A DNA stretch of 64,000 nt, from the NCBI GenBank assembly GCA_037179385.1, contig CM074185.1, positions 11,212,922-11,276,921 of the forward strand, given 5' to 3'. Source of the DNA: Holothuria scabra (taxonomy: Eukaryota > Echinodermata > Holothuroidea > Aspidochirotida > Holothuriidae). The translations under genes and the position numbers were made by a program. Positions within the stretch are counted from its first letter, which is position 1; every line of letters begins with the position of its first letter. This document shows, piece by piece, positions 37,267-64,000 of this stretch. The notes under the pieces are model-generated. The model did not search any database and was not told where the DNA came from. It saw nothing but the letters and a program-made list of their open reading frames with translations.

Positions 37267-37392
37267 CTAATTTTGAAATATACGGTTGGTGAATTCCACG
37301 TAGTCGAGGGCGTTTGGAACTTCTCTTCCTTTGCTGTCTTTGTAGGGGAGCATGTTCAAGATGCAATACTCAGCCAGCTTCGTTGGCATGTT
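37267..37392 (-). CDS. SPTAN1-like: Alpha-spectrin last exon
   Basis: [10 protein letters not shown] through EFTNRIFQN and TAG. This is the C-terminal part of the EF-hand domain; acceptor CTTTCAG. Confidence 0.93.
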   Translation of the reverse strand, partial: NMPTKLAEYCILNMLPYKDSKGREVPNALDYVEFTNRIFQN

Positions 37393-40300: not shown

Positions 40301-43300
40301 AACTCTGTTCAAGTATAACTTATTTCACCAGTAATACTACACCAGTATCCCTCTCTATATTTGTATCACTTACTATACCAGTATCAACCTGTATCACTTG
40401 CTGTACCAGTATCAATATACCAGTAGCATTCTTGATGCCTGTATCACTATAGAATATCACTGTCACTTACTGTACCAATATCACTACATCAGTATCACTC
40501 TCTATGTCTGTATCACTATGCTAGTGTTTCACTTACTGTACCAGTATCACTCTCTATGTCTGTATCACTTAGTATCACTACACCAGTATCACTCTCTATG
40601 TATAAATCACTACACCAGTGTTACTGTTTCACATGCTGTACCAATATCACTGTACCAGTATCACTCTCAATGTCTGTATCACTTAATCTTCTTGTATCAC
40701 CAACTCAGTACCAGTATAACTTACTGTACCAGTATCACTATCTGTCTGTACAACTTACCGTGCCTGTATCTGTTGTTCCAGGTTGTGCTGCATTCTCATA
40801 CCAAGCTGGTCAAGCTGGTCCCATTGCTGAGCAATGCCAACAGTCGAATGTTCTGTGTACCTGTTGGTAAAAGATTCAACACATCATATTTTACACTTTC
40901 TCTGTCCAATCACCTGACAAATAAAGAATTTTTACCACATGACATTACCACATGATAAATACAATATACATTTAATTCAAAAACTTGTATATATTTCTCA
41001 ACCACTTGTTATTTTTCTTTAACAGAATGGACTTCAACTTTGCTTTACTTATTAATAGCCAATATTACTGGAATCACAGGTGAAATAAACTGAAATCATA
41101 CTCAATTTGAAACTGGCCATGCACTCTGATACATTTTTTTCATATAAAGAAGCAAAAAACACCAACAGCTCTCAACAAGATAAGGTTTCCCACCCCACCC
41201 CTGTTTAACATACCTGTTGTCCAAGATCAGTCTCTCCTCCATCTTAGCACCAAGCTCTTCAATCTTCTTTACCTGTGTCTTCTCAGCTCTTACTTCCTTG
41301 ATCTTATCCTAAATGATATAAAAGCAGTTAAAGGGAAATATTGCATTTAAAATGTTCCAACATAGCATTAAAAGTAAATTGCCCTATTCATTTTTAAGTC
41401 ATTCAGTCTCAACAATAAACCCCAGTAAATGGCTTCATCTCCTCAAAATATTATGCACAAAAAGAGTTATGGAAGTTGCATCTTTTGAAATGTTGAAAGT
41501 TTGGGTGAACAAATTATTCTTGAGCAACAAACGACTGAATCTCTGTCTGAGTGATGCTTATTTCTTGAAAGAAGGCTACCATACTGCCTTATTTGTAATA
41601 AAATATCACTCTTTGCCAATTAATGTTGGTTTTAAAAGGATGAAATTTCCATGTCAAATGAAAGACAATATTTCCCTATCTAAATCTAAAGCCACATAAT
41701 CAAACCCACATAAACAAATTATTAAAAATTTTGATGCAAACTTCAAAGTTTCTCTCTCTTTATGGAAAAAAACTTGTGAAAAGTGGAACTTATCTTTCCT
41801 TCTTTGGTGATCTCACCATCCACTAGAAAGGAGCAGAACATATTTTTTCCTTTATCCTTTATGATGTCCTCACAAATTTTTCTCAGTCATCCTAGTTTCT
41901 CTGCATTTAACCTCCTAATACAATCACTACAATGTAATCTCATACCCAAACTAAATCTGCTCATATTGGGCTCTGCTATTGTAAACCAAAGTTCTACATT
42001 TCTAAATAACAAAACTTTAACCTTGGTAAAAATCCCCCAAGTCCATTTTGACCAAGTCTATTTGCGTTGTTACTCCACCAAAGCTATTACCAAGACCATT
42101 ACCAGCTTGTCAAATGTTGGTAGTGGGCATTATTTGGAAGGACACTAGCACATGCAGCTAAAGTAATAGCTGTGAGAAAATGAGGGTAGGGTTGTTATGG
42201 GGGAAGGGGAACCATGTTTACTTTCTGGCTGCTGGCCTGGATAGTGTACCTGACATTCCAAACACTTTTTTACTGGACAAAACTTCAGTCAACAGATTTT
42301 ATGACAAGCATAACACAGCCTCTATGAGAGCTATCCTAACCAGTCACTCTATATAGGATACTTTACTTTAAGCAAATTCACTCTTTTGATCACTATTACA
42401 TTCCAGATATTTGCACATTCTTACCTTCAAGTTATCAAGTTGGTTCTCAAGGTTGCCTGATTCTTCCACCATAGCAGCTCTGTAGGAAACAAGAAATTAA
42501 AAAAAAATATCCAAATTAGAGACATTCTGGAAGAGTGAAAAAACTGTAAATTTTCATGCAGAATCACATGCTGAATGGCCAGGGAAAGTCCCTGTAACCA
42601 TGCAACCCATGACAGGCTGTGTGCAGGTATGTTAGTATCCACTGGTTCAATCCTGTTGGTGTAAATTTGATTAAAAACAAAAACAAAAACAGCAAAACAG
42701 AAACAAAAACAAAAATAAAAGGGTCCACAAAACTAGAAAGTGGGGGTTGGATGCCAAATTAATAAAGAAAGGTGAGAGAGAGGTGCAAGGGGTAAGGAAG
42801 GGGCAAAAAGGCAAGCTCAAGCTTCCTAAAATCAGACAATTTTAATGAGCTACCAAACCAGGCATGTTAGAAGCTGACAGCAAACAAATAATATTGTTAA
42901 TCCTTGCATTTTTAAACAGACAACTCTTCACATGCTTCACCCATTTGCAATGACTTAGATTTTCTGGTCTTCAAAGAAATGAAAGGGCTATCTTCTTTGG
43001 CATTCATACATATTGATTACAGGGACATTTTACATTTTAAAGAAAAATAAGCAGAAAGTTAGTCGACTGTATTCATTTTAAAAAAATGAGGAGAAAGGAA
43101 AAGTAATTTACAAACCAATTTGGGATAGATTTTTTTACCATTTTGGGGCTAATATTTCAAGATCTATTTGCTTCAATCAATTTTTATTTTATTTGCATTT
43201 TTTAATTTTTGGTAGGGAAAGGAATTAGACAATAGACACACCTATTATGGAGACCAAATGTAACACTGAAATTTGCTTTATGATTCATTTTTTGTTATTA

Positions 43301-46300
43301 AGGAAGGAAACAAAAAAATACACCTATGATTAAGATAATCAACCAAGCCCTATTGATATTTGCTTTGTGATTCATTTTTTTGCTACATTTTCCTTTCCAA
43401 GTATTAAGCTGTGTGGAATGTGGAGACTGAGAGGATAAGATTAGGAAGGAAACAAGTTATAAACATTTATCTTTAAGTTATAAATCTCCATCTTTCTTTT
43501 CAGAGGTGGTGTCCCCTCCTTTACTATCCTTAGTAACCTGAATTTAAATTTATATTTTCAGATTAATATTTGCAAACACTCATGAAAATATGTCTAGCTG
43601 CAAGCGGTGACCATGTGGCTCAGAAAAATTTGGGCATAAATGTAATAACATGCACACAGTTTAAATATATATATGAACCTAACTTTAGCCTTCATTAAGT
43701 TCATATTGAATTTCCTTTCTCAAGACCTGAAATTAATTTCAGAAATCATAACTGCTTGTTTAATGTTTAACATGTTGATAAGCTTGTAAATTAATCAACA
43801 AAATAGGGAAACTGGATGGTAAAATCTTGTCAAATGCAAAAGGCAGAGTTAGTCAAGAAATCAAAGAAATGCAAATTATGCATTTTAGCAGTCAAAAGAA
43901 TGAAAGAAAGTGACTGTACAAAATAGTTCTGTCGGAGACAAAATCTCTGTGGAGAGGATGAATCAGATGAAGAAAGAACCCACGATGACCATGGAAGGAG
44001 AAAGAAAGAAAAAGAATAAAATGATGCCAAAACAGAATTCAAATGAAATGATATCAAAATATGTAAACAAAGACCAAAGGTGGACTAGGTCCAAGCTTTT
44101 CTCCCACAATTTATAAGTAAAAAGATAAAGATTGGAAGGAACAATCCATTTGCATAACAAATATTATGTCATTTATCATTGTCCCATCAAATTTACTTCT
44201 CCCTCCCCCAGTTGTCTTAAACCCCTAAATGTACATACACAAGTCCATGCAATTGCTTTAGGGCATATCCTGGTGAGCATACACGGCCCTTAAATGTAAT
44301 CAACCCCCCCCCTCCCCGTGCATGTTGTGTATTAATTTAGGCCTCCCTGTGCTTTTTTCTTTCTATTTCTTTGTTTTTATTTAATGTCCATCAAAGAGTT
44401 GTAACATTTGAGATTGGTACCCACATAAAAGTGTAGTTTAGGGTAATGAGTGACTGTCTTGGGGAGCCAAAGACTAAAAGGTATTGTACGTTGTCATCAT
44501 GACATGAGTTAAATTTTAATTGAAAGAATGTGTTTTTACAAATTAAGAGCACTGAGTTTACTCAAAACCACAAACCCAAAACATACTTAAATTGTATGTG
44601 ACACATATTTCTTAATACCAGCACCAACCACATGGAGACCTTGCCTTGTACCTCTCAATTGAAAAATGGTTTCACAATCAAAATCTAAAACATAAGCAAA
44701 GAGCTTAATTTGAGGCCATCCCCTTTTAAGTGTAAATGAAACATCTCAAATTCTTACATTATGAGGCACCCTACCTGTCAGCATATCATTGCCTACTTAT
44801 AGCATAATAAAAGTTCAATCACAAAAAGTTAATCATTGCAATCATTAAATAACTAATTAGTTTCTTCCAATTCTGGAGAGCCCTGCATTCCACATCCTGT
44901 CCACTCCCTAGCCTGACAAATTATTCAAACAACAACACATACCTGGTCTCTGTCAGCCATTGGTGGAAGGAGTTGGCCATCTGGGCAAACTGTTTGCGGA
45001 GACGATCATTCTCATCCTGTCTTTCTGCTTCTTTGTTCAGTTCCTGTTCTCTCTCCTTGATGATCTTCTGGAGGTTGCGCCAGGTCTCCTCCAAGGAATC
45101 CATTGTAAACCAAGTGTAACTGGAGGTGACAAAAACACATAATCATTGCACATTTGTTACCTACGTACTTTGTGTTTCTAAACAGATTCCTCCAATCAAT
45201 TACATGGACTTTACTTTACAAGGACAACAACATAAGAGCACCCGAGTCCTTGTAAGTAGAGAGTTTCCTCCCCACAAACAAGGGATGATGTAACTCTCAT
45301 ATGACAAAATGCTTAAAATGTTTTTAGAACATTTTAAGAACATCAGAATTAGATAAATTGGCAAAAGGGAAAGTATCTTTAGCAACAATATTAGGTAGTA
45401 CATAAAAACCACAAGTATTATATTTAGACATCAATTGCAACCTTTCATTTGACTTTTTACAACCAAACTCTTTCAGTTGAAATTAAATCCTTTTGGCAGG
45501 TTCAGTATTTGCAGCAGAGTGTACCAAAGGCATATCAAAGTATAACCTGATTTAATTAAAAGGAGCCCAAGGCACTTCTGCAGTTATGGGGCACTGTGAC
45601 AAAAGTTTTCCAGTATACAATGTATCAATACCCACCCCATCTCTGAATGGGGGAAGTAAGAGATCATTTTTGTAGATTGAATAGACTTACGGGTTGCTTG
45701 TAACATTGTATCCCTTGATCTGTTTATCCAGGGCTGCCAGTTGTTTCAGGTCATTCTGTGCTGTACTGAGGGAGGAACAGAAAGCCTCATGAGCTTCTTT
45801 CAGGGCCTGAAAGGAAAAAGATACACTGAAACCATCAGTTACCAATAACTCAGAGATGAATTCAGAAAGTCAAATTAACGGTGAACATCACTGGGGGTAT
45901 CAGCCTATCAACCTTCTAATTCCTTTGTTTGCATGTATTGTGATGCTGTTGGTTATGCAAAATCTTTACTTAAGCAGGATTTCAATTGGTGCAAGTATTA
46001 TCTTGCATATAGATAAAAGGAATGAGAAGACTAAAGGATGATGGCCCAAGTAATGGCAGAAAATTAAATCTGTTATTTGGCTTCTGGGATTCATCCACAT
46101 GACAGCGATATAATTATGGTGACTTTAACTGGATTAAGCATTTTATTTCAAGTGAATGGAACCTTGCAGGTTCCACACTGGGGCAGCTCGAATTCTTTAG
46201 AATGTCTTTACATGACAAAAGATTATTGACCAAGAACAGACCATACAGTTTGCAATGCTGACAAACAGAGCCCAGCAGATATGATCCCCTTCATGTAAAT

Positions 46301-49300
46301 TCCACTTAAATGATAGCAGATAAATGATACCCTGCTTTTCTATTGTGTTGAGTGGAACAACACCAGACTGACAATTGGCATTGTTTAGAACTCAGTTCTA
46401 CGGAAATATGAGCTTCCGATTTATTATCTCCAGGCAAGTGCAAATAATCCTGTTTCTAAGGGCTCTTTTTTACCTGCATACAACAACTTAAACATTTCAT
46501 GTTCTATCTGGCAAAGCCAAAATAGCAGTTGTCAACAATTCTGGGAAGTTACAAAATTTCTAATGAACGAATGAAAAACCCTTCCTGAAAAACCCTACCC
46601 CTCAACATGTGACACAATTTGAGGAAAAATTCAAGCATGTCTTTTCAACGGCAACTAATTTAAACAAATGCTTTCTAAGCATATCTGACATACCTTAATC
46701 TCTTCCACAGAGTTGCATCGAACTGGATCAGTCAGATCTTCTTCAGCGTTCTCAAACCAACTGTTGAATGCAGAAGCCTTCTTGGCAAACAGCAGGAAGA
46801 GATCCTCAACCTGTAAAGAACAGAATAAAACCAGTGAAAGTAGCATATTGATTTAGTTTGTGAAATTCATCACACTTTTCCAAACCCATAAATTATCTTC
46901 ACACACTAATAACAAATGGTCAAACTTTAACAATCCCCTGTACTATATACAAATAACTGTTTTATGAGTAAGTAAAGATTGAATTCCATTTTTATAAGTT
47001 TGTGACAAGACATATTTTGATATTATGCACAAAACTGTTGAAAGCTAGGACACAAAAATGCTTTAATATTTTACATGTCTGTTGGGTGTTGAACTTGACT
47101 CACTATGCTGATACCAACCATTGTGATGTACCCATGTACCCTTGTAAAGAATGCATATCAAGAATCTGGATCATTTACCTCTTGGTATTGTTCTTGGGCC
47201 CTCAGAAGACGTTGACGACGGTCATTAGATTCAGCCAAGAGCTTCTCCCACCTAATGTTAAGAGATTAATATAAATAATGAGTAACATATGCTAGGAAAT
47301 GAATATGCATGACACTGAATGGATATGTATATATATGAAAACTGACAATGGCAAAATGGATGTTACTCAAATATGCAAAAGCCTGTATTAAAACTGTGTT
47401 ACTAGTTGAAAAAAAAAAACATTCATGACACGAAAAATGTTCCCTTAGAGGGTGTCCTTCTTTGATTCAACATACAAACAAATTTTTATTTTGAATGACT
47501 ATACAATAGAACATTTAGGATTATGCACAACTGAGGAGTAATGCATGCAATGGATATGGATGTTGCCTTAGTGCAACCAGCAAAAGTGTTAGCTTCCTGC
47601 AAGTGCAGTATTCCCCAGTAACGCACAGGTCCAGTGTTTTTAACCTTGTTCATTTAAGATGGAAGAGACATAAAATTTCCTATGCAAATAACCACATTTA
47701 AAACAGCAAATTGCTGTGTTAAATAAAGTAACCTAAAGTGAATGCATTTATCCATTACCATGTGTTTATCTTGGGATAAAGCACAGCCACCTGACTGTAA
47801 TGGACCAATACTTGATCTACACGCATTAGAACATTGATGGTAGTTCAATCATTCTTGCATCTGTCCCATTAATGGGAGAAGAAAGAGGGATGGGTAGAAA
47901 TAGTTGGGAAACTGATAGGCTCCTTCCCAAGACATTTGGGCATGCAAAGGAAATTTGACATTTGGAGGGACATTTTCATTGTTGTCTGTACATGAGAATT
48001 ATGGGAAATTTTACTCATTTCCTGGGAAATATTTCATTCCCTTCCTAGAAAATTAACAATTATTCCAGCCATGAGAAAGAAGAAAACAATACCCACCTTC
48101 TGATGAGGCTAGCATGACGATCCTGAATGGCTGGGGTCTGGGCATGGTTAGAGGCAACCAGTTTGTCTTTCAATGTAGTAATCTGTTGGATTCCTTCCTT
48201 CTCAAAAGAATGCAGACCAGCATCAAATGTCTCCTGCTTGGTCAAGAGAGTCTGGACAGTGGACAGGTCACGGCCATAGTCATCAGATCGGACATAGCTC
48301 TCCTTCTCGGCTACCGAATGAAAATAGTTTTTTTTTTTTTTTTAATCATAACTAAATGGATTTGCCTGAGGCAAAATTCATTCACTTTAAAATATGCAAA
48401 AGAATTTTCTCTTTCAGGGAGTGAAAACTACATCCCAACAGAAGGTGCCATTCAGATAGTATTAATTTTCAAAGTAATGCAATTTTTTTTAAAATATAGT
48501 GAATTATGGGAAATCTGTGATATCACTGTGGTCTTTTAATTTGACAATTTGACAGTTTATTTTTAATTTTGATGAAGGTAATATTAAACAACACTCATTC
48601 ATTATTTTTCCAAATTTGTAGTCTTGAGCGGTTATAATCCAAAAAGTGTGATATATTCCTTTTATAATTACCAATCCATGACTCAACCACATCAGCCTTC
48701 CAGATAAATTGCAAGAAAGCAGAGTTTTCATCAAGCTTGGCCTTGCGTCTCTCAGCGGCTTTTCGGAGTTCCTCCAGCTTATTGTTCATCTCGTCACATC
48801 TCTGTCTGATGGCATCTGCATTGAAGTTCCCCTGGAGAAGAAAAAATGTCATAAATTTGTCAGTCAAGTTACCTTCCTTTCCAGGATAGAGCTCCTTGAG
48901 TGGGAAAAACTCCTTCAGGAGTAGATTTAATTTGCTACTTAGCTCTTTGACAGAGAAAGAGATTCAAGGGGACTTTGGAAAAACTAGGTAATGGAACTGA
49001 AGTTATAACAATTAGCCCAGGAAAAAGTTTCAATTGGATAAAGGGAACATATAAGTCTGGTTAGTGATTCTGAGATTTGCCAACCATTTTTTTGGTCTCC
49101 ATCTTCTCATTTCTTTCATTACCATTGCAATGAAAAGTTGCATTCAATTCAGAAGTGACCTTTATCTGTCTATTATGAGTTAAGCATTACCTTGAGCCAA
49201 CAAAATGAGTTCTAAAATCAATGCTGATACACCTCAGCAATTTTTCGTCATTACTTGATGGCTGAATTCAGCTATTTGAGGATGGGATTAAACTGGTACC

Positions 49301-52300
49301 TGCCAGAACCTGCTACAACCAGCCAAAACTTGACACCATGTACCACTTAGCTGTTTTGAATTTTTCCTACATTATTTCTAGTCAAGGCAATCAAAATACT
49401 GAGATAACACTCCTCTTTTCTCAACAAAATATGTATCACAGTTTCATAATATATCACTTCATTTGCCAGCATCCTCAACTGCCACAATAAATGGTCCAAT
49501 GAGTTCTCTTCAAAATTTATCGCACCCTTACCCCTGTCTCAAATATTGGTTCCTCCCCCCACCATCTACTTCTCAAAAATCTAGTGCAATGAGCCATTGA
49601 TCTCAAACTTACACTCTGGATCAAGTCATCTCCTTTCTGTTGGATGTCTGCTACACGGTCCTTATGGACCCCAAAGTCAGTGTCAAAGGCCCTGTGTTTC
49701 TTCTGTAGGCCCTGTACTGCTGCCAGAGTGTCGCCATAATCCTCGCTGGAGAGAAGGTTTTGCTTCTCATTGATCCAGGCCTCCTCTTCATCTGCACCAG
49801 CCAAGAATTCCTGGTATGCCAGAGATTCATCAAGTTTGCGGCCCCTATCATTTAAAACAAAGTTGGCAAATGTTGAGCATTAACAAATTTGAATGTCTTA
49901 TGCAGAAAAGTATATTCCCCACAAAACTACATTTACACAAGGATCACAGAGAGATAAAAATCCTGAGAGGCTACATTATGTTAGTTAGATAAGGTTTTGC
50001 AGCTCAGTTTTTAACCAATTCGTTTCTGTTGGGCTGATCACTGCTGCTCACTGACTTTTTCTTACCCCATTGTTTATGCTGGGCACCAAGCACAATGGCA
50101 GTATGTTCCATTTTGAAAGTGTTTGGTATGACACTGCTGCAAGTTGAATGCTCTAACAACTTCACCATTCTGGCTTCACTAAGACAACAAACATTAAAAC
50201 AGTCCACACAAGAAGAGGACACTCATGGTTTTGGTGGGGCTGATGCACACTGTCTAACAAGGTGTTTTTTGATTTGCTGTTGCCATTGTATTGTATCTAT
50301 TGTATTTTTTGTTTATAGGGTTAGGGCTTAGGTTAGAAACTGGGGCTATCGTTAGCCAGTTAGCAAATTTCTTGTTAAACAGCGTGCATTGCCCATTTTA
50401 GTAGGGCATATTGCCGGAGAATTCTTTTAAAGATGCAGTTGGATTGGTCACAAAATCCAGAACCCAGATCTTACCAGATGATTTGACATGTGCAGACATG
50501 ATCAGGCAAAACTGATGAAGGACACATTATCAGGACTATAGGTTTGGCATGCAGCAGGTCATGAATTTTATATTTTTCAGGTGTTGTTACAAATCAAACC
50601 CCTCATAAAATTAAAGACTGTGGTAGGTTAGCTATTGTTTCATTTTGGTTCATTGACTTGAGCTCTCATGTTTTTACCTACCAGTGCTAAGTTTGCACTT
50701 CTTACATTGATCTCAGGTGTACTCTTCAAAATTCATGGCTTGATGAAAGTGAAAAAGACACACAGTTTCCTTACCCCTCCCACCCCACCCCCTGATGTGA
50801 ATGCCATCATACCTGACTCCACAAAGATCTTTAAGGTTGTCCCAGTTCTCTTGCAGGTTGTCCAATCTCTTTTGTACTTCTTCATTCATATCAGTGTCCA
50901 CCATCAACTGCTCTCCCTTCTCCTTGACCGCCTGATTGGATGACCAAACACCAAACAGAATGATTAGTAATAACACAACAACAATATTACCAAAAATAAC
51001 AACAAAAACAATCACACTTATATATAATACTGTGATAACAATTGAATCGTTATTGGAAACAAGTTGCAAAAACAATATCAAGATTAACAACAGTAACAAT
51101 ATGGTAAAAAGAGGAACTAACACAATGAACAAGTGCTGCAAACCCTAAATTCAAATATCACATCTGACAAAAGCATTATGTTAAGTCACAAATTAAAAGC
51201 TGACCATTCCCTCTCAAGAAATGTAACTGTAGTAAGACATTTTCATATATTCCTACAATGACATAAATATTTAAACCTCTTTCTAAATCTCTGAATAAAT
51301 TTGTCATTGAAAGAGTAATTTCCCCACCATGATATTCCAGCTCGTTGAATTTCCTGTGAGCCTGTTAGTTTCAATTCATAAAAGCTAAATGGACCATGAA
51401 TGGCCACCAAAGAACCTAATTGTTAAAAGAGCTGCATTTTCTGTAAAGATCATCCACAATTTGATATCTTACAACACCGTGCTCCTCTCTCCAAAAGTTA
51501 AAAGAACCTTAATTGAGCAAAATTAAATAAAGTAAATTTTTTTTTTTTCTTCGCAATATAATCCCTCCTTGACACTTTTGGTTCTGTGTGCAAAATACAG
51601 GCAATCACCCCATTCCACACAGGTGTTGTAATTTTTAAGTAAAGTCCATTGATTTCAAAGAAAATAATATTCCAACCAACTACTGCATCTTTCTTGAATT
51701 CAATTTTTAACACTTGAAACTTTTTAGTTTCCCATTTTCAGCAAAGACATAATAAACTTTCAGATTTTCAAGCCTTGTGCATACATATGAGCAAAGGTTA
51801 TGCCATACTTAAATCATTATTCTGCCACATACTGTCCCATATGAATTGTGAAGTATTCCCAATGTATTTTAATGGGCAGCAGTTCAAAACCATAGACTGC
51901 TTGTAGATTGCACAAGCACAATTTTTGAATTCTCACTACCAAAATATAAATTTTACCCTACCTCAACATTTTAAAAGACATGAAAACAACATAATGCTCA
52001 ATAGTGATAGTAAAGTGTAAAGGCAGCCTTAATAAAGCATAACAGAAAATGTTAATAGCAATCAACCTGTGTGATTATAATCAAATTTCTCCAATAATTG
52101 ATTACAATCTGTAAAATTTCACTTTATGAGAAAAATGTTAAAAATCCCTCATCCTTGTTAGAAAGGTTTTGTTAGTAGACTGATAAGACCATAAAATTTT
52201 TATCTTTTAGCTAGAAGAAGAGTGAATTTACATTTGTTAAATCTAAAGAGACTTGCTAAGATTGATTTATTTTTAGGTCTTTTGCTAAATATGGTTCTGT

Positions 52301-55300
52301 CATTAAACTGTTTTTAACCCTTCATTTTTTTACATGCAAGGTTCTGGTATAATTTTCTTTACCCCCCAGTTTACATGCATGGTTCCTTTTCGAAACTACA
52401 CAGTGTATAATCCTCTTGAATGCTGTAGAGAAAGAGAGAGGTGGCCAACTATCACCCTTTGAGAATACAGGTCCAGTGGGCACTTGGTGTACTTTACATG
52501 AACTGATCCTCTTAGCAGGATCAGCAAAAGTAATATGGTGGCCTACAGTATGTAGCTTTTCCTCAAAACTACACTATATTAGCAGTCCGCCAGCTTTCAC
52601 TTGAAGTTTCTAATTAGTAATATTCCAAAAATGGTGAGATATTAAACTTGAACATCTTGTAACTTGTCTTTTAATAGTTACTTTTAAGGACCCTAATTTT
52701 ATAAAGGGCAAAGAGAAACCAAAAATCCAACCATTGCAATAACTCTTTTGACAAAACTTACTATGGGTGAGGGGGTGTGTTGGGGGATCTCCTTTATGTA
52801 GTGCACACAGCACTAGCAAATATGAGAATTTGCAACATGAATTCTGACTTTCTTAAGGAAAAGTATTAAGCTTTCCTAAATGCCATAAAAAGTTCCTAAT
52901 CGCTTTTTAAGAAACATAAATTGTGCCATGACACAATGAAAGCAAATGATATTTTGGATGAAACTGTGACAGTTTTTTAAAATAAAATTTTAAATTGTAT
53001 AAACTTTGTTGCAAATGGCTGTTGAAACTTTTCCTGTTCAGATATCGACAATGACAGTTTATGATTAGAGGATCCTCTTGGTGCTGAAGAGAAATTAAAT
53101 TCATGAATATGGAAATTAAATATTGATGAGATGGGTCAAACTTGGAAAGTGACCTGTGTAGTTTGGACTGGGTTCTGCATCTGAAAGAGCTTCCAGCTTG
53201 TCTGGAAGTGGTTTCAACTCTCAGAGAGCAAATATTTTTTAACTCAATGAAAAATACCACAGCAAACACATATAAAAATGGATCTTGGGTCTATCCTTTA
53301 TGATAAGGTAAACACTCTATGACATGACAGCAGGTAAGAAGGATATTTTTGTGATAATGGATTTTTTGGTTTCATGAATTTTACTCAAAATGAGCTCTAT
53401 CAAACATGATAAAGGGTGAATTCCTACTTTTGTAATGGTAATTTAACCCTTGCTGCTTAAAATTATGTAAATCTATGTACAACTAAGTCTGAAACTACTG
53501 AACTTCTGATACTGACTAGCCATTACGTGAGTAAAATGTGCTACAATATTATCTCATTGTATTTTCAGGGGTTAAATGATAGCTAAATCCATTGTTTTAG
53601 TATAAAAGTAACTTCCCCATAAAAGCAAAAGAGTGTCCGGAGAGTCCAGTGAATAGAATTATTGCTTAAACTGGTACATGATGTACACCTTTCATAGAAG
53701 TTGAAAGGTTAATTGAACCTCTTTTGTGATGGCAATTCACCGTCTCTCATATTTGACCTTTACCTTTGTATCTAGTTGAAGCTACATAATACATTTACAT
53801 TGGTACTGTGTTAAGAATAACTTCTGACTTAATAGTTATTTAGTTTTTGAAAAACTCAACGTTAAGGTAATATATGCCGAGAAGCTGTAAACAAAAATTT
53901 CCATTAAAGCAAATTAGCCAATTTATGTGAATTAGAATACATGGGAGAAATCGGAAAAAATTAAATAATTTTGTTACCAAAGTTTATAGTGACTAGTTAG
54001 TTAATCAGTTGACCATTAACTAAGGATTACAGGAAGTTGAAAATTAAAAGGATTATATGACAATATCAATTACAGTTAACATCCTGCATTAGTTAGTGCC
54101 CCTCACTACCAGGATGGGAAGCAATTATGAGGACAGAACTCGAAGGCTGGGGGCGCCAGATCACTAGATTAAATTACAATGCTTCTGATAAAATGGGCCA
54201 ATGGGCCAATCAGCAACAGGAGATTACTGTACTAAAAAAAAGGAAAACAATTTGTGACAATTTGCCTCCAATTATGTATGCTCCAACTAAAATCTGAATA
54301 CCAAACAAAAATGCAAAATCATTTCAACTATAATATTAAATTTTGGCATCCTATAAAAGATACTAGTGTAGATGAAGATTCTGTTGGCACTTGGTTGGGA
54401 ATGACAGAAGAGATGGCTGATGGGAAGGCTATGTTTGATGAAAAGGCGATGTTTTCTAATGTGGAAAATACCATTCATTCCTTTCAACTAACACTACTGC
54501 TTAGCATCCAAATGTATTTGTTGAGAAACTTTAACAATTATAAAATTATTTCTTGCTAGTTCAAAATTACATCTTTACATATGCAATATAGTGAAGAGAA
54601 AAACGAGAAAGTTTTGACTGTTTCATGGAAACCTTTTGAAATAAAACTCACTTTTGAGCCACATTTCTTCAGATAAAACAAAGGCGACTTGATAAAATTT
54701 AGGTGGAATGACAATGATCATTAGTGCTATTTACTAGCAATGTACTGCTACTACATACATTGCTAATAAATGTATGAGCTAGATGAGTGAGACAAGAAGT
54801 TTCTAAGAGTTAAACTGAAACTTAACGATATGCTGCTAATTCCTACTTGGACCATTTCTTGCAATGACTAACTTTCTATGACTATCACTCTAACCAAAGC
54901 AAACCTACATAACATCACTGTGTTTTTAACTCTGCCTAGCTTGCAAACAAAAACCACACAAATGAAACTTTACCCCTTCCTTTACCTGTTTGGTTTTTCT
55001 ACAATAAACACACCCTAAAATCCCATGAAAATACTCTTAATGAATAACATTTTAAAAAGAATTTAGTTATAAGACCAAATCCAACTAGTTGTCAGTAAGA
55101 ACTTTGCTGCGGTGGCAAATTAAATTGTTGACAGCATTTGAAACAAGCTTTTTGTGAGTTTTTTAAAAGAATTATTTGCTCAATTTAATGCATGAGAGCT
55201 GCGCAAAAGTGAACAGCATCACCTGTTGGACCCATTCTCCAGTTTCGAAAATCTCCTGCAAAATAAATTTATTCAAATAGGCGATTTCATGATGTGCTCA

Positions 55301-58300
55301 TCCCCCAAAAACAAAAATTTGAGGAGGATAAGAAGTAAAAATTGCCCAAGGAAATGTTAGGGGAAAAGAGAGTAGAAAAGATAAATAAAGAAAGCTAGAA
55401 AGAAGCTAGAAGCTCGATTTATAGAAGCTTCCAATCATCAATAAATTTGGTGCAAACTTCAACAATGTTTTAACACAATCTTTCCTTTTTTTTGGCAAGT
55501 TTGCACCATATAATAATATTGAGATCAAATTCAAATGATATGGCCATTTTAACATTGAATTTCTTAACACTAACTTTTTTAAATCTTCTAAAATACCTAG
55601 ATGCATAATTTTTTCCTTAACTCTATTTTTTTTATTCAAATTTTTGAACTGATAATTTACACAACACATAAGTTACTAGAGTCCCTTTTGAGATAGATAG
55701 TAAATTTAGTACTACACTTAATACCAGATTGTAAAAAGTTTCCATGAATCTGCTTCCACAGTCTGGGTTTGGACTTACTGTACGTGATGATGTAGGTTGG
55801 GGAAGATGTAGACTTGGATGGGGAAGGGGGGGGGAGGGGTACATCAAGGTAGTGTAAGGTAACCTCTGCTGTTGACCATGTGACAATGTAAACCATTGAA
55901 TTGAGGAAACAATGGAAAAAAGATATCATGTGCCCCCATTTTTGTTTTCAGTTTGTAGAGTGGAGAGGAGGTTATGTTAGTAAATAAAAGGTTTGGGGTA
56001 ATATCTGATTAAATGTAAACATCATCATTGGCTCCTACTACCATAAATATTTCCTGAGATTTCAGGGTATCAATATGTTAATGCTGGTGTCATATATACA
56101 TGTTGCATGATGTGAAAATCTTGGTTACCACCCTGGTGTTTCAAAGTTATAATCCCACAAGTGTCCAAGATAAAATGATAGCCTTCCACCCATTGGACAT
56201 AAGGTTGTGGCTCATATAGCCCGTTTACATCCAATTTCTGTTGGGAATAAAATAATTCACCTGTTGGACCCAGAGGCCATATTCATGCATTTGCTGTAAG
56301 TGGAAAATGTGAGGTCAAGGGTCATCACTTCATGGAGGGAATAAAGATATGAATGTAAAAGGAAATATTTACCTACTGGTCAGTTTCTGTGCCTTAGAAA
56401 TCTGATTCTACAACCATCCTATACAAACATTCATACATGCTTTATGACTACATAAAGGTATCAACACAAATACAGACTCACGCAATACAAACATGACTGG
56501 ATGGATTAAAAGGCTTCCTGTCAAAATCGCAGGCTTCAGTTGCCTCAGCCAAGCTGCAGCCATGCTTTGTTCCTATAAAACTTCACAATAGCATGATAAA
56601 TTGAAATGTGCTATTGCAATGGGGATTAAGTCATCCAGTGGCAGTGTGGTCTATTCCAGCTGATGTACACCAATCTGTTTCACACAAGTGCATGGGTTCA
56701 AATCCTGCTCGATGTATGTGGGTTTTTCTCCTGGTACTCCAGCTTTCCTCCCACTTGGCACTAAAAAGGTTGCCGAGCAAAGAAATTGGACTAAAGCACC
56801 TTTGGGTGGACAAGTTAACTAGTCGACTTTGCTTTTATTTTGCAAAGGGAATTGAACACACTATGACTGCAACTGTTGCAGCCTGGCTGAGGCATCTGCA
56901 GACAAAGGATTTTGACATGATGCTAAATCAAAATATTGATGCTATCTGTATTTACAAGACAAGAAAACAAAATATTGACAAAAAGTGAAATGAGGAAAAG
57001 TAAAGAGCAAACCACCCCTCCCCTCACAAACACATTTAGAAGAACCACTTGACATTAAAAGCTTTACACCAATATCCCAAAATATCTTCCATTACCCCTC
57101 CCCAACAAAAATATGGCTTCAAAATAATTTCCAAGACAAACAGAAGAAAACACCACAAAACAGCAAGCTAGCTGATTTTAAGTTATTGTCAAAAAATTCT
57201 TTCTGAAAATGAGTTGGGAGCATTATAACAGTATCATCGTTACAGGAGGGCATTCCTACCTGGATAGCTGGTTCATGAGCAGTAATCTCTGCTTCAAGAC
57301 GTTTATGCTTCTTCCTCAGGTTCTGGACACCGGTCAGCTCTCGTCCAAAGTCATCAGACATTGTCAACAGTTTCTTTTCCCTTCACACATGAAATAAAAT
57401 CATAATTTTTTAGTTAAGTTAGTAAATGTGGGGTAGAAAGTTGGAAAGTCGGAGCACATTGTTCTATTAGAATAAATGATTTGAGAATTTGTAATTACTA
57501 GGTTTACTATTGGAGAGACTGTAAATGGTTTATTGAGAGGTCGGGTGTTTATAATGCAATAGGTATAAAACAGTTAAATCTCTTCTAAAATGTGTCTATA
57601 GACCTTGTGCATTGATGACACACTGACGTCATCCTTTAGGGAGAACAATGGAACACGTGGCCACAAACATAAGAATTTGCCCTGCATGTGTAGCAGACTA
57701 TGCCTGTAGTTGACTCGTTGACAAATCAGCTGTCTGTATTTGTCAGTGTTGGACTGTGTTGCCCCCAAAGGAGGGCGTACTTTCCACTCTGTGACATTAT
57801 ATGCACAAGGTCTTTTACTTGGTTGAGAACTCAACCTCTAAGATATTCCATGGCATAATCTCTTTTTTCCAGATAAAAGTGGGTTAGTGATACTCAATTA
57901 CCAAAATGGTAGACCTCTGCAACGTACAGTGTGACAGAGAAGTCGGAGTTAAGACTTGGGTAAACTTTGCTGGAAATAATTAGGCATAATTCTACCAGGT
58001 ATGGCATTACAGTTGTACTAGGTATTCCTATCTGTGGTATCAGTTACTAATAATCATACTACTAGGTATAATATTAGAGAAAATATGGTACAAGGTATCT
58101 ATACTTGTAGTGCAGTCAGATTTGTTAGATGAAATTTTACAGCCCAGTTTCCAACCAAGTGCTTCAAGTTGAGCCCCCCACGGTCTTTTTTCCAGTTGTG
58201 GCTCACTGGCTTGTTTTTCCTACTGTATTGCTTATACTGAGCCCCACCCACAATGGGGGAAACAGGTTCTGTTTAAAGTCTTCGGTATGACCCAGTCAGG

Positions 58301-61300
58301 ACTGGAACTCCCGACCTCTGGACTGCATGGTCAAGTGCTTTAACCACTTGACCATGCAGTTGGTGCTAGTAGTGCAATGGTTAGGCTCAATTCTAGGAAG
58401 TATTTTTCTAAAAGAACTATTTTGCCTAGTTTTATGGTAGTGGTCATTTACCAATACTTAATTAATCATCTACTGTAATGGAAAAGATCTGGGCAAATGC
58501 ATCATTTTTTTAAAGTGAGATTTGGTTATGATAGAATTTTTAAAATTTTCAAAACATACTTGATCCAGGTCTCCTCATCTTCAATATCCCGGAAGAAAGC
58601 AAAGATGCGGTGAGATTCATCCAGCTTAGTACGTCTAATGACACAGAGTTCAGTGATCCTGTGCAAACAGAGAATTTATTTATCAGTAAACACAATACAA
58701 TAATTAGCACATTATAGACCATTACAAACACACCCACTTCGCAAAATTTTACCACTTATTTTACCCAGTTAGGGCCATTTTACCACTTATTGTATCCAGC
58801 TGGAGTTGATAACATCTTTCAAATTCATTTTGTTCATCACATAGCTCATAGTTTGTCACTCAGTAAGGGCAAAAACATGTTTACTGTTTTGCAAACCTTT
58901 AGCTGAATTTTGAGGCAACACAGAACAATTAAGAATAGTATTTGGTACATAAAATCTGTTAGCAATTTGAAATATTGAAAGCTTTCTGATCTCCACTTAA
59001 TTGCTGTGGACAGAAAAATAATGAGTCTCAATTTTTAAATTTGTTAGTGCTCTACTCAAACAAGTCTAATAAGTCATAAAAAATTTGAGATAGGGAGAAA
59101 ATGTGCCACAGTTTTAAGGTGTATTACCTTTGGTTTTTGGTCAATAGAACAATGCAATAATTATTTTGTTCCTTGTTAGCTCTTGTATGCATAGAAATAA
59201 CTCTTACCATTTTGAAATCAAATTCCTTGAGAGAAACAACATCTATGTCTTCACCAATTTACAATGTCAGAGACAATGAACGTACGTAAGCACAATCTAA
59301 AAACAAGTGAACGTAGTTCTAAAGTTTGTAACCAAGGGGGTAGGAGAAAGTACCCTTACATTTTTTTTCTCCCCCTCCCCCCCCTCCCAAAAAGTAACTT
59401 TTGCATGAAATGAAGTTTACTAAGCATCAAATCTGATGAAAGAATGTTGCCCCCACCCCCATCAGGAATGTCCTTCCCCATTTTACTGCCTTGTATGGGC
59501 TGTGGGTCTGGTTATATCTGAGACTTAAGCTTTTAACTTACAATAATATGATGGCTAATTTATCCAAGTCTTTAAAAAAAAAAAAAAAAAAAAACAAGCA
59601 CACCAAACAAAATCCATGAAAAAAATGAATCAAAAACATGTGAGCCTCCATTTTGTGGGCAAATTCCAATCAGAGAACAAAATTTCAAAAACTGAGGCAA
59701 GCACTGAGAGTTTCTAAAAGTGCAGTGTGCCAGTTTTACAAAATAAAAGCAGCACTTAGCAAATCTTTGTGGTAGACTGGTCTAAAACAAGGCATATCAG
59801 TCAGGTGAGCAAATGATTTTGTTGGTGGAGTGATCATATTTAATAGCAAGCCTATGTCAAGTGGGAGGAAAACCGAAGTAATCAGAGTTAACCCACCATG
59901 CATCCGAACAGCATTTGAGCCAATGTCTTTAAATGTGAAACATGGCATAAACCACCCTGTTACTCGAGGACCCATCAAAAGCATTTTAATTTCTTTCCTT
60001 TTAAAATGTGCAAAGCAAAATTTGTCATTGAGAGGGGTGACTCTGAGAAGCATTTTACACTTTGAAGGAAACAGAAATGATGAGGACTGGAGAAACGAAA
60101 CAAACAGAAACCAGCAACACACTTCTTCTGTAGCTTGTTGTGCACAATGGACACAAAATTAACCAAATAGATGACAAGCAAAGTGACATGGAAATTTTAA
60201 CCCATGGTTCATTCGATTCAAAGTGACAAAATTCCACTTCTTTTGAGAACTTGGCTGATATTTCCAGGACTTCTAAAAAAAGTAAGATTTCATCTTTTCA
60301 TCTTTTTCCACAAAATGTACCTAGACATCTGTAAAATCAGCATAATAAGTCCAATGCCTAAAATTCCCTGACTTCTCCAGGACCTTTAGAATAATTGCTC
60401 ATTTTCCATGACTTCCCAGGCCTGGAAATTTAAATTTCAGTTTTTCCTGAAATGTCCAGGATTTTCAGGACCTGTGCAAATACTGCAATGGTAAGGGTTG
60501 GGCGGTACCCTGAAAAATTGGTACCTGTATTGCAAAACACACAGAACCGGTATTGTGGCAGTACCCGTTCTCAACTTTCCGGTAAGGAAGTCAGATGGGA
60601 AGGAAACTGAGCCTTGCATGGCCCCCATGTTATCCTGCACATTAAGGAATCTGTGTGTTTGATTGGGTTAATTAACGTGCAGGTACCTCTGCTCTAAATG
60701 TCTGTGTAAATATTTTAATCATCCACACATCCTAACAGTTATTTCTGTCGGCAAATATAATGAGTACAGGTAATTTTTTCAAGTACCGGTATTTTTTCAA
60801 GAACCGGTATTTTTTCAAGAACCAGTATTAGTAACACACCAGATATCTTCGGTATTTTCATGACCTGTACCTCCAGTAGTGGTATTGACGTCAGTACTGG
60901 TATACCGCCCAACCCTAGCAACGGTTACATACTAGCAATTTTTTTAAAAAAAATTCATGATCACGACAAGAGGAGAAAATGTCCGCCAGCATTCATTAGC
61001 AGTTCGTCTGATGTATTCAAAGAACGGTTACATCTTCAAAGAATGGAAGCCATTTCAAATTTTCATTTTGCATGAAGTGAATTAAATGACCAAAGAGATG
61101 ACATTTGAGCATTTATGACCAAATAAGGATAATATTTAAGTATTTATGACCAAACAAAAACCAAATTTGATGTTAACAGTTTTGAATTTGAATTTAAATC
61201 TTTTTACTTATGAGGCAAAAAGCATTGAAGATTTTTCCTTCTTTTCTTTTTTTTTTCTGAAGAAATTTGCTTTTTTGAAAGTTTGAAGAAAGTTGTCACC

Positions 61301-64000
61301 TTTTGTGACCTTCTATCAAATCCTTACACCGTCTGTAAGATACAAGTCATTTTCAACATGCTCAGTTAATACAAGAAATGGACCAAAAGTGGATGCACTA
61401 CTCAGAGAAATTAATAAGAATTAAAATAGCAAGAATACTTAAAGATGATCTTATGAAAATGCAAAAAGGCCTTTATTGGATTCTGAATGACTTCACAGAA
61501 TACCCTTGTCTTACCTTCGATTGCAAACTGATTCAGTAAACCTTCATAATGTGAATGTTTTCGATACGCTATCACTGATGTAACATTATAGATAGTGTAT
61601 CAAATTTGTTTGCAACCAAAATCAAAACAAAAGTATTCTGTGATGTCATATAGAATCCAGTATGGTTTTTATTGCATTCCTATGAGATGATAGATCATTG
61701 TTATATGTAAGAGGTGTAATTAAAAGGATACAACACATGTGACCACCAAAAAATTCATTGCCCATTTTCTTTTATGCTTACATATCATAAAAATTCTAAA
61801 ACAAAATTCTAAAATAACTTTTTGAAAAGACAAAGATTTTAAAGTTAATTGGTGGCTAAGTCATGACATGCCTTACAGTAAAAATCCACATTCAAACACG
61901 CACAAGTCAGAGTCTGCTTCTGTCTTTCAACAAGAGAAGACTTAGATGAAGAAACGTTTTGGACCCTTCTACCAGTGTTTTGGTTAGGGCTCAAATCCAA
62001 GGGTTCCATGACTGCCTGACATTTTTTATCAAAAGTTTGAGGAAAGGTTGAAGGGTCTCACAATTTCTTCAAGGGTCCCCATAAAGTTTTAAGCCTATAT
62101 TAATATCAGCCATGGCCACAGTTGAGTTTATGGACTGTTATACTAAAGAGGCTTCACTATTTTAAGAACAACAAATTAGTGTGTGAACAGCCGGCTGATG
62201 CAGAGGAAACCTCTCCAAGCTTCCAGGTAGACTAAATCTGCATATGAATTCAGGGACACAGGTTTGCAAATATCCTGCTTGTACCTAATTCTTCAAATGA
62301 TTCAGTCATACTTACTTGGTGTATCGGACATTGATTGTAATCTTGGTCTCCTTAATAACCTCTGGGTTGAAATGTCCAGCCTCAATGAACTGGTCAGCTT
62401 GGGCATTCAGAACATTTATTCTGTCCTGGGAATCAAAACACAAAGTACACTTTGGTAGAAAGTGTTGGTCACAATGCCTACAAATTGTCTAGCATTACTT
62501 TTGAATAGGTAACATAATTACTCAAGTGACTGATTGAGAGAAATGGAACAAGTATACTCTTAAGCCTGCTTCTCCTGGAACATAAATTTCTGCATACAAG
62601 ACAGCCAATTCTGATGCAGTTAAATAACTTATAAACGAAAGACACTTCAAACCTTTTTCAAGAATGGATGATTTATAAATTACGCAGGCAATCTTGAGAC
62701 ACTTTTCTTTCTCAATGAAAATTTCTGGAAGATTTCACCGGCTACTCACTGAATATAAACATGTAATGTACAATACTTACACTAATAATCCCTTCCAAAT
62801 CACTTTTGAAATGCCAATGTTTGCCATCCCTTTAGAAGGTGAGAATCCCCTCAGATTTCCTTCATCATACTCGAACTTATCCTCAACCTAAGATGGAGAT
62901 CACTCCCATTTTCAATATTCACATATTGTCAATCAATCCAGTCCATTATGTAACCACCCAATTCATTGGGCACAGCCAAAGTGGTGGGGGGGGGGGGGGG
63001 GAGGAGAGGATTCGGCCATGCCCCTATTGAATTCTGAAAATGATTTTGTTGTGATGGAATAAAAATGACTTCAAATGATGCTTAATGCTACACACCATCA
63101 GATCTGAGGGCACACAAATATTAAAAAAATAATTTCAAGGGGATCCGGTGTCCTCTGATAGGAAAGTGATCAGGCCCTGTAGACAGCCTGCATCAAGAGA
63201 CGCTCCTGGCAACACCAAAGACCAAAACAACCCAGATGATCCTTTCCTTACCTCATGGGCTTTAACGTCATCCTCTACCAGGGCATGCTTCTTCAGAAGA
63301 TTCTGAACTGAGGCCAAATCCCTGCCAATATCTTCAGAGGCCAGGGTATTCTCCATCTGTTAGTTGCAGTAAAAAGACCATTTCAACATTTGAAACCAAA
63401 CAAATTTACTCAAAACTTCTTGTGAAGGGAAATGAAACAATTGCAAAGAATTTTGTGGAGCAAAATGAATTGAAAACATGGCATAAATCACAATTCCAAA
63501 AATTTTTACTTCATTGACAAAATTTCAAGAATGTTTTTGTGATCTACCTCTAGATTGAGATATGGGGAATCCTGCTGCTGGGAATACTATTTTGCACATA
63601 AACTAACTTTAACATTCTGGCCACTTTCCACTTTGACCAGACGAAATTCCATGATTTATGCATGGCTGTTTGAAGCACAACCCAGGAAGAGAGTTTTCCA
63701 TTGGTTCCAGGCTGGACATGCACCCTGTCTGAAAGAACTCAACAACATAAATCAAATATTCCCTTACCCCTATGCCAAAACCAAGCAACTGAAAGACCCA
63801 CATTTACTGCAAGAAAGAAAAATCTTGGTCATACCTCTCCGAGCCAGAATTCAATGTCTTTGACACTAATGTTGAAAGTTTGCTGTTTGTTGGCCTCTTT
63901 GAGCTTGAGGGATTTGGTGGCAGATTCCTTAGTCAGGTACTCCCACTGGTCACCAATGCTTACAATGCGGGCCTGGACAGCGTCCTCTGTACCAGCACAC
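37267..64000 (-). CDS. SPTAN1-like: Alpha-spectrin (non-erythroid type), 3' exons, partial
   Basis: Twenty constitutive exons in the window join in frame into about 844 residues; the 5' two-thirds lies beyond 64000. Alpha-spectrin pairs with beta-spectrin as an antiparallel rod of triple-helical repeats that supports the membrane skeleton. Landmarks nearly match vertebrate alpha-II spectrin: [133 protein letters not shown] and [14 protein letters not shown]. Two EF-hand loops have canonical ligands ([12 protein letters not shown] and [12 protein letters not shown]). The C-terminus is [12 protein letters not shown] and stops at 37267-37269. The SH3 domain and calpain/calmodulin segment of the family are not in the window. 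Two 33-nt optional exons lie in the 6.3-kb intron. Confidence 0.97.
38003..38282. mobile_element. MITE with CAGGGTTT ends in a spectrin intron
   Basis: CAGGGTTTGCATG on the left pairs with GAAACCCTG on the right. CATTC directly flanks both ends. The interior (TTTCCAGG and CAGGCCTGGAAATTT words) recurs at 60225-60480. The ends resemble hAT elements. Confidence 0.55.
38378..38525 (-). CDS. SPTAN1-like: Alpha-spectrin exon, EF-hand 2
   Basis: From the second half of the EF loop ([10 protein letters not shown]) through [11 protein letters not shown] to [11 protein letters not shown]. Donor GTAAGT. Confidence 0.95.
39029..39175 (-). CDS. SPTAN1-like: Alpha-spectrin exon, EF-hand 1
   Basis: [15 protein letters not shown] through [11 protein letters not shown] to AVDPNR. 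It contains the first calcium-binding loop. Confidence 0.96.
39782..39835 (-). CDS. SPTAN1-like: Alpha-spectrin exon (54 nt)
   Basis: [17 protein letters not shown], the entry into the EF-hand domain. Donor GTAAGT, acceptor CACAG. Confidence 0.93.
40125..40757. repeat. Minisatellite of TACCAGTATCAC-type units
   Basis: Irregular tandem array of TACCAGTATCAC, TGTCTGTATCAC and CACTTACTGTACC words. It ends within about ten bases of the spectrin donor at 40758. On the minus strand the CACTTACTGT words read ACAGTAAGTG, so the array repeats a donor-like GTAAGT. The open frames in it are artefacts of the repeat. Confidence 0.85.
40759..40860 (-). CDS. SPTAN1-like: Alpha-spectrin exon, end of last repeat
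   Basis: [20 protein letters not shown] through EQQIQAR. The donor GTAAGT is directly followed by the minisatellite. Confidence 0.96.
41214..41308 (-). CDS. SPTAN1-like: Alpha-spectrin exon
   Basis: [10 protein letters not shown] through [12 protein letters not shown]: helix B/C of the last repeat. Confidence 0.94.
41309..42424. other. Spectrin intron
   Basis: No element is recognised. Open frames at 41352-41699 and 41783-42148 on the plus strand have no motif. Confidence 0.4.
42425..42479 (-). CDS. SPTAN1-like: Alpha-spectrin exon (55 nt)
   Basis: [18 protein letters not shown], matching the MVEESGTLESQL stretch of vertebrate alpha-II spectrin. Confidence 0.92.
42480..44942. other. Spectrin intron
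   Basis: Contains a CAAAAA-type simple repeat at about 42670-42720. Otherwise AT-rich with no recognised element. Confidence 0.5.
44943..45119 (-). CDS. SPTAN1-like: Alpha-spectrin exon, start of last repeat
   Basis: [18 protein letters not shown] through FHQWLTET. Donor GTATGT, acceptor CTCCAG. Confidence 0.96.
45691..45806 (-). CDS. SPTAN1-like: Alpha-spectrin exon
   Basis: [17 protein letters not shown] through [11 protein letters not shown]. Donor GTAAGT. Confidence 0.95.
46694..46810 (-). CDS. SPTAN1-like: Alpha-spectrin exon
   Basis: [19 protein letters not shown] through RCNSVEEIK. 39 codons, phase 0 at both ends. Confidence 0.96.
47179..47251 (-). CDS. SPTAN1-like: Alpha-spectrin exon (73 nt)
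   Basis: [19 protein letters not shown] to QYQE. It joins the Arg-Trp boundary of the preceding exon. Confidence 0.93.
48097..48310 (-). CDS. SPTAN1-like: Alpha-spectrin exon
   Basis: [19 protein letters not shown] through RHASLIR. Donor GTGGGT, a weaker form. Confidence 0.95.
48672..48831 (-). CDS. SPTAN1-like: Alpha-spectrin exon
   Basis: [20 protein letters not shown] through KADVVESWI. Confidence 0.95.
49613..49844 (-). CDS. SPTAN1-like: Alpha-spectrin exon
   Basis: [20 protein letters not shown] through VHKDRVADI to GDDLIQS. Confidence 0.95.
50003..50190 (-). mobile_element. SINE copy in a spectrin intron
   Basis: The reverse complement shows GGTGTCATACCAAACACTTT... followed by GCCCAGCATAAACAATGGGG and GTCAGTGAGCAGCAG, the order of head, body and tail of the family at 895-1125. 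It is degenerate. Confidence 0.6.
50813..50931 (-). CDS. SPTAN1-like: Alpha-spectrin exon downstream of the optional microexons
   Basis: [19 protein letters not shown] through [11 protein letters not shown]. It starts in phase 0, so it accepts either the 57260 exon directly or a 33-nt microexon. Confidence 0.94.
55223..55255 (-). CDS. SPTAN1-like: Candidate alternative microexon B of alpha-spectrin
   Basis: A 33-nt open block between TTTTGCAG and GTGATG encodes [11 protein letters not shown], in phase 0 at both ends. It shares the WVQQ end and 14 identical bases up to GTGA with the block at 56261-56293. It would insert 11 residues into helix B of the fifth repeat from the C-terminal end, between HEPAIQ and AVKEKG. 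Confidence 0.65.
56261..56293 (-). CDS. SPTAN1-like: Candidate alternative microexon A of alpha-spectrin
   Basis: A 33-nt open block between CACTTACAG and GTGAAT encodes [11 protein letters not shown], in phase 0 at both ends. It contains TGCATG, the core motif bound by Rbfox splicing factors. It is homologous to the block at 55223-55255 (shared E, G and WVQQ). Confidence 0.65.
57260..57380 (-). CDS. SPTAN1-like: Alpha-spectrin exon
   Basis: [20 protein letters not shown] through [10 protein letters not shown]. Donor GTAGGA, a weak form, upstream of the two microexons. Confidence 0.95.
57600..57813. mobile_element. AGACC-ended MITE, copy 3
   Basis: Ends AGACCTTGTGCAT and ATGCACAAGGTCT are perfect 13-bp inverted repeats. 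The interior CAGACTATG, GACAAATCAGCTGTCTG and ACTGACGTCATCC match 22564-22806 in inverted orientation. Confidence 0.75.
58136..58375 (-). mobile_element. SINE copy with recognisable tRNA-like head
   Basis: On the minus strand it opens with a tRNA-like head (GTGGTTAAAGCACTTGACC, then GGGAGTTCCAGTCC), followed by GGGTCATACCGAAGACTTT, AACAAGCCAGTGAGCCACA and the tail AACTGGGCTGTAAAATTTC. This is the best copy for defining the family head. Confidence 0.75.
58560..58658 (-). CDS. SPTAN1-like: Alpha-spectrin exon
   Basis: [19 protein letters not shown] through EDEETWIK. Confidence 0.94.
58659..60224. other. Spectrin intron, first part
   Basis: A C-rich run lies near 59373-59388 and an A-run at 59574-59594. 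No gene is supported. Confidence 0.5.
60225..60480. repeat. Relative of the 38003-38282 MITE
   Basis: Shares GGCTGATATTTCCAGGACTT, ATAATAAGTCCA, AATTCCCTGACTT and CCAGGCCTGGAAATTT with 38003-38282 in the same orientation. Its ends are degenerate. Confidence 0.55.
60493..60917. mobile_element. hAT-like MITE (425 bp) with 8-bp target duplication
   Basis: The ends AGGGTTGGGCGGTA and TACCGCCCAACCCT are perfect inverted repeats, flanked by GCAATGGT (60485-60492) and GCAACGGT (60918-60925), one mismatch in eight. Inside are tandem copies of AAGAACCGGTATTTTTTC near 60780-60825. Confidence 0.75.
61475..61661. repeat. Fold-back repeat of about 190 bp
   Basis: TGGATTCTGAATGACTTCAC at the left (61475-61505) pairs with GTGATGTCATATAGAATCCA at the right (61632-61661) with a few mismatches. 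It is likely a small palindromic transposon relic. Confidence 0.5.
62316..62425 (-). CDS. SPTAN1-like: Alpha-spectrin exon
   Basis: [20 protein letters not shown] through ITINVRYTK. Donor GTAAGT. Confidence 0.93.
63252..63356 (-). CDS. SPTAN1-like: Alpha-spectrin exon
   Basis: [19 protein letters not shown] through VEDDVKAHE. 35 codons, phase 0 at both ends. Confidence 0.95.
63835..64000 (-). CDS. SPTAN1-like: Alpha-spectrin exon, cut by the window edge
   Basis: [20 protein letters not shown] through [10 protein letters not shown]. Helix C of one repeat runs into helix A of the next. The upstream boundary lies beyond 64000. Confidence 0.93.

Follow-up and report, generated by a model that had tools for sequence, protein, structure and literature searches.

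The longest intron in the 3′ part of the alpha-spectrin gene of the sea cucumber Holothuria scabra contains two 33-nucleotide (nt) blocks, m1 and m2, that have the appearance of microexons. They raise the question of whether such blocks are real exons and, if so, where they came from and what they would do to the spectrin repeat that receives them. The window analysed here is a stretch of 64,000 nt, corresponding to C7:11212922-11276921 in the 1.19-Gb genome. The evidence favors an answer in which m1 and m2 are probably real, paralogous and optional microexons that arose by duplication of the beginning of the next exon, with one of them (or none) spliced in and the native end of helix B displaced.

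Both blocks lie on the minus strand in a 6,328-nt intron (50932..57259), the longest of the 19 introns of the gene in the window. Microexon m1 (56261..56293; acceptor cacttacag, donor gtgaat) and microexon m2 (55223..55255; acceptor attttgcag, donor gtgatg) are both in phase 0 and are separated by 1,005 nt. The upstream constitutive exon, E5 (57260..57380, minus strand), encodes the end of helix A, the A-B loop and the first half of helix B of a spectrin repeat, and its C-terminal residues are ...HEPAIQ. The downstream constitutive exon, E6 (50813..50931, minus strand), encodes the native end of helix B (AVKEKG...), the following loop and helix C. By the numbering used for crystal 1u4q, it is repeat 16. 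An earlier note, made from the DNA letters, had described two open, phase 0 blocks of 33 nt with AG before and GTGA after, and its coordinates and peptides proved exact for both blocks, as did its observation that the two share their final 12 coding bases and the GTGA that follows. It had also claimed that the flanking exons join in frame without the blocks and that the repeat is the fifth from the C-terminal end; E5 and E6 do join directly, and four repeats follow repeat 16 in the gene model. With splice-like borders and a frame that is intact whether a block is included or left out, m1 and m2 have the borders of cassette exons.

The resemblance between the two blocks is far beyond that found in randomized sequence. 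They are identical at 21/33 bases and 6/11 residues, with no clear similarity between the flanks outside the blocks, and their peptides align with a BLOSUM62 score of 33. None of 1,500 dinucleotide shuffles of the intron reached this score (top shuffle, 8), bearing out the homology proposed in the earlier note; with loose splice thresholds, none of 400 shuffles did (top, 23). With thresholds taken from the weaker of the two blocks, four open exon-like blocks of 9–90 nt were present in the intron, compared with a shuffle mean of 1.04. Across both strands of the other 18 introns of the gene in the window, which are shorter and mostly lack a comparable pair, the best pair score was 1. The 16-mer TGGGTCCAACAGGTGA, which comprises the shared end of m1 and m2 plus the donor, was found at three sites in the genome by a search that passes over very common words; two of these are m1 and m2, and the third has no exon-like context on inspection. 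Splice sites were scored using matrices built from the alpha-spectrin gene’s own 19 introns, with real exons scored in a left-one-out manner (acceptors, −1.9 to 13.4; donors, −1.0 to 13.4). The acceptors of m1 (10.4) and m2 (5.6) are ordinary on this scale; the donors scored 6.5 and 3.8, respectively.

Additional evidence came from inserts at the same junction in annotated echinoderm proteins. Three protein searches, for which the best 120 of 827 matches, the best 120 of 1,970 and all 45 were listed, together gave 203 different proteins; scoring in the second search was confined to the 7,976 candidates with the most words in common, and each protein represents a cluster at 90% identity, in which isoforms may be hidden. 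The repeat-16 junction could be anchored in 180 of these proteins, the remaining 23/203 being largely beta-spectrins and divergent sequences. Among the 180 anchored proteins listed, 172 are plain at the junction, two (P0127 and P0150) are artefact-like, and six carry an insert: P0001, Apostichopus japonicus X5, Asterias rubens X2 (P0005) and X1 (P0018), Acanthaster planci X4 (P0122), and P0003, a sea-star-like sequence with 94% identity to Acanthaster across the stretch searched. The closest relatives of the H. scabra protein among the matches listed are P0001 and Apostichopus japonicus P0002 (95% and 88% identical, respectively; 91 residues). The m2 peptide is present letter for letter at the same junction in P0001, a public, near-identical alpha-spectrin. 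The Apostichopus X5 insert, AMHDYGLWVLE, is of the m1 type, being identical to m1 at 7/11 residues with a BLOSUM score of 46. Both sea-cucumber proteins listed, P0001 and Apostichopus X5, carry exactly one repeat-16 insert each.

In the sea-star group (P0005, P0018, P0122 and P0003), the insert at this junction is 14 residues long, with the form AV(H/D)DAGAVLME..., and the annotated Asterias rubens isoforms X1 (P0018) and X3 (P0121) differ solely by its presence in X1 and its absence from X3. Rows of the plain form come from, among others, hemichordates, crinoids, sea urchins, vertebrates, molluscs and arthropods. The sea urchin and crinoid representatives (P0123, P0140; P0125, P0128, P0129) have no insert at the site, with the limit that 90% clusters may hide isoforms (P0140 stands for 30 members), and no named row among the listed matches is a brittle star. 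In the inserts and native segments compared, position 6 is a glycine and positions 2 and 9 are hydrophobic, and a tryptophan at position 8 is added in the sea-cucumber inserts. The earlier note had suggested looking in relatives for an open block ending in WVQQ at the same place. Blocks at that place were found at the protein level; the WVQQ ending itself is confined to P0001, with WVLE in Apostichopus and another ending in sea stars. Its broader claim, that the alpha-spectrin gene has two homologous optional exons here, is supported to the extent that each type occurs singly in public proteins and that Asterias isoforms differ at this junction; for H. scabra itself, we infer optional use.

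The sea-star inserts point to the origin of the extra segment. In each of the three proteins tested (P0005, P0122 and P0003), the best match to the insert within its own protein, among 2,385–2,399 other 14-mers, was the adjoining native segment, with scores of 37, 40 and 38 compared with 22, 23 and 23 for the runners-up. Since the best match lies immediately after the insert, the sea-star insert, as judged by its sequence, is a tandem copy of the segment that follows it, which in the window starts the next exon. When the 11-mers of the Apostichopus protein were compared with the sea-star insert, the top score was that of the insert which the Apostichopus protein carries at this junction (27; next, 19). 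By score, the nearest neighbor of m1 is the Apostichopus insert (46) and that of m2 is m1 (33). These links suggest a chain leading from the native segment to the sea-star insert, the Apostichopus insert, m1 and then m2, to be read link by link. Direct homology of m1 and m2 to the start of their own next exon was also considered, and is at most weak unless the sea-star intermediates are taken into account; because the direct links are weak, the proposed descent rests on those intermediates.

The likely effect of an insert on the protein was explored using AlphaFold2 models of residues 1623–1959 of P0001, a piece that includes both of its 11-residue inserts, and of the matching piece of Asterias X2. 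The alignments behind the models were thin (12 rows for P0001 and 9 for Asterias X2), and crystal structures served as the insert-free reference. Mean values of the predicted local distance difference test (pLDDT) were 88.8 and 90.0, respectively. In repeat 16 of the P0001 model, helix B comprises residues 145–164 and 166–186, with HEPAIQ at 165–170 and the insert at 171–181; the native residues 187–195 form a loop, and helix C starts at residue 196. In the Asterias X2 model, helix B comprises residues 134–153 and 155–177, with the insert at 160–173 inside it, and residues 178–189 form a loop with a short helix at 182–185 and pLDDT below 50 at 179–183. In both models, the insert lies within the latter half of helix B, and the native residues that follow form a loop. 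All 213 residues of the R16-R17 crystal 1cun could be aligned with each model, at 2.5 Å for P0001 and 2.4 Å for Asterias X2. The models predict that the insert replaces the end of helix B and that the native copy shifts to the B-C loop. The earlier note had instead proposed that the 11 extra residues would be absorbed by the coiled coil, a proposal that does not agree with either model.

Taken as a mechanism, the first 33–42 bases of the next exon, which encode the last part of helix B in repeat 16, would have been tandemly duplicated to give the ancestors of m1 and m2. One of the two, or presumably neither, would then be spliced between ...HEPAIQ and AVKEKG..., and the included peptide would act as the end of helix B, with the native copy moved to a lengthened B-C loop. 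The repeat would keep its three-helix fold, with alteration of the B-C loop and of one face of helix B, the face that bears the tryptophan. Such an altered face and longer loop could change the stability or contacts of repeat 16. We further infer that H. scabra uses one block at a time, that this use is regulated, and that it may tune repeat-16 stability or binding.

An alternative is that the blocks are real exons whose peptides lengthen the coiled coil, adding a hendecad (11 residues) or two heptads (14 residues) to helix B. Eleven and 14 are the two insert lengths that preserve coiled-coil register, which counts for this alternative, as does the fact that helix B runs a few residues beyond the insert in both models. 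The rest of the excess is nevertheless found in the B-C loop in both models, all 1cun residues are still matched, and helices A and C of repeat 16 do not have matching extra turns, making lengthening an unlikely explanation. It is more improbable still that m1 and m2 are additive, with both included in some transcripts to give 22 extra residues: their shared phase and the 1,005 nt between them would permit joint inclusion, but 2/2 public sea-cucumber proteins, as cluster representatives, carry a single insert. The possibility that the blocks are chance open stretches or remnants of dead exons that H. scabra never splices draws on the weakness of both donors and on a further open 33-nt block between m1 and m2 (56132-56100, minus strand). 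This candidate, with fair splice-site scores of 8.3 and 4.9, has no relative in a 16-protein alignment and was set aside as probably due to chance. An origin of m1 and m2 by chance or decay is very hard to reconcile with the 0/1,500 shuffles and with the presence of both types in annotated proteins at the exact junction, and we regard it as highly improbable.

Several observations weigh against the favored reading, in which one of two duplicated segments is spliced in as a replacement helix B end. The donors are on the weak side, with only 3/19 real donors below that of m1 and 2/19 below that of m2. In direct comparisons, m1 scored 13 with the sea-star insert and 2 with the start of the next exon, and m2 scored 8 and 11, respectively. 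The native segment ranks 23/2,416 for m2 in P0001 and 51/2,428 for the Apostichopus insert. Open intronic blocks match a native-segment profile at least as well as m1 in 381/3,290 cases and at least as well as m2 in 27/3,290, on a profile whose loose anchor mixed in AVTQKG-type segments of a second repeat; insert counts were taken instead from the anchored survey. Moreover, the best match of m2 in Apostichopus scores 24 and the Apostichopus insert only 17, and in P0001 the sea-star insert is matched best by the native segment rather than by m2. P0001 may be the same species in another assembly, with 12 residue differences and a repeat-15 insert in the shared part. On the structural side, the fit to the three-repeat crystal 1u4q is looser (313 and 314 of 317 residues, at 5.8 and 5.0 Å), and the displaced B-C loop is a low-confidence region modeled from alignments of 9–12 sequences.

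The gene that contains these blocks is represented in the window by 20 exons, E1–E20 (37267..63999, minus strand; stop codon, 37267-37269), which on conceptual splicing form a single open frame with the microexons included or left out. The rest of the gene lies upstream on the same contig and tracks P0001 over most of its length. The gene encodes an alpha-spectrin of the non-erythroid type, with spectrin repeats collinear with R15-R17 of alphaII-spectrin and C-terminal EF hands; for this assignment, the comparisons of repeat collinearity used retrieved sequences. Outside the spectrin gene, the window also contains a tandem array with a period of 854 and approximately three copies (5435-8078).

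Two other introns of the gene contain microexon-like blocks. A third block of 33 nt, in the E3-E4 intron (61300..61332, minus strand; acceptor 11.1, donor 2.0, which is low), enters and leaves in phase 2 and would add to helix C of repeat 15. P0001 has RCLDLKEGHKR at this site, identical to the block at 9/11 residues, and in the P0001 model this insert (residues 87–97) appears as a low-confidence loop interrupting helix C. That the repeat-15 block derives from the exon following it was considered on eye-level similarity only and is not claimed. A 27-nt block in the E13-E14 intron (43920..43946, minus strand) falls in the last spectrin repeat and would read DFVSDRTIL after splicing, identical at 9/9 residues to an Apostichopus X5 insert at the same junction. 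Its acceptor scores 7.2 and its donor, gtacag, −7.6, below all 19 constitutive donors. At this junction, vertebrate and protostome rows have segments resembling TYLLDG-, LWLLDG- or MWLLEG-. In the 16-protein alignment, lineage-specific extra segments are present at many junctions. With these segments and the further blocks in the gene, small optional exons look like a general habit of alpha-spectrin, within which the repeat-16 pair stands out for its likely origin and its two versions. Among the segments seen in passing, a 13–14-residue segment, MSIRKDEGRLSIT in P0001, occurs within the alignment only in the rows of the two sea cucumbers and has its own short stretch in the genome, upstream of the window (89416-89378 in window-scale coordinates). 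At residue 81 of Asterias rubens, in the first repeat, DVRHLRNLK is present in X1 (P0018) and X3 (P0121) and absent from X2 (P0005), and hemichordate rows have a 6-residue version.

There are parallels with alternative splicing in other systems. Vertebrate alphaII-spectrin (SPTAN1), a member of the same gene family, likewise has small, in-frame optional exons. A 20-residue insert after the SH3 domain is alternatively spliced and has been tied to connexin 43 (PMC6521328), and differential splicing is described for a 15-nt SPTAN1 microexon (PMC7935315). In zebrafish, removal of an sptan1 microexon leads to mild neural phenotypes, with differences in brain activity in heterozygotes (PMC12626420). 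These precedents indicate that such inserts can matter. The vertebrate extra segments differ in being elsewhere (e.g., LSKLL after DPTNIQ, which from its length would be the 15-nt microexon), and neither of the two vertebrate rows of the 16-protein alignment has a repeat-16 insert. Mutually exclusive tandem-duplicated exons are also homologous neighbors that provide variants of one segment (PMC9741552), but the copy here is apparently of part of an exon, and sea stars keep the native segment, such that the insert is an addition and not a substitution. Neural microexons of the SRRM4 programme are similarly very short, in-frame and optional, and several are in cytoskeletal genes (PMC12626420); at 33 nt, m1 and m2 are longer than the 3–27 nt by which such microexons are defined (PMC7935315). 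A limited search of titles and abstract openings in the literature on spectrin splicing, microexons and inserts found no insert at the repeat-16 site, which is weak evidence of absence, and the passages of PMC4703142 consulted contain nothing on such inserts.

Spectrin repeats are usually viewed as fixed blocks, and here splicing appears to vary half a helix with the fold kept. The locus offers a small, testable system for the path from duplication of part of an exon to regulated protein diversity, and it is a candidate for cell-type adjustment of the echinoderm spectrin skeleton. A more general proposal, which is possible but rather doubtful, is that splice-controlled exchange of a helix segment operates in Eleutherozoa, or at any rate in sea stars and sea cucumbers: the duplicated helix B end would compete with the native one for the same groove of repeat 16, splicing would change the face of the helix, the displaced copy would be exposed as a loop, and sea cucumbers would have two replacement segments. 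If this is true, the two sea-cucumber segments could tune the compliance of connective and muscle tissues.

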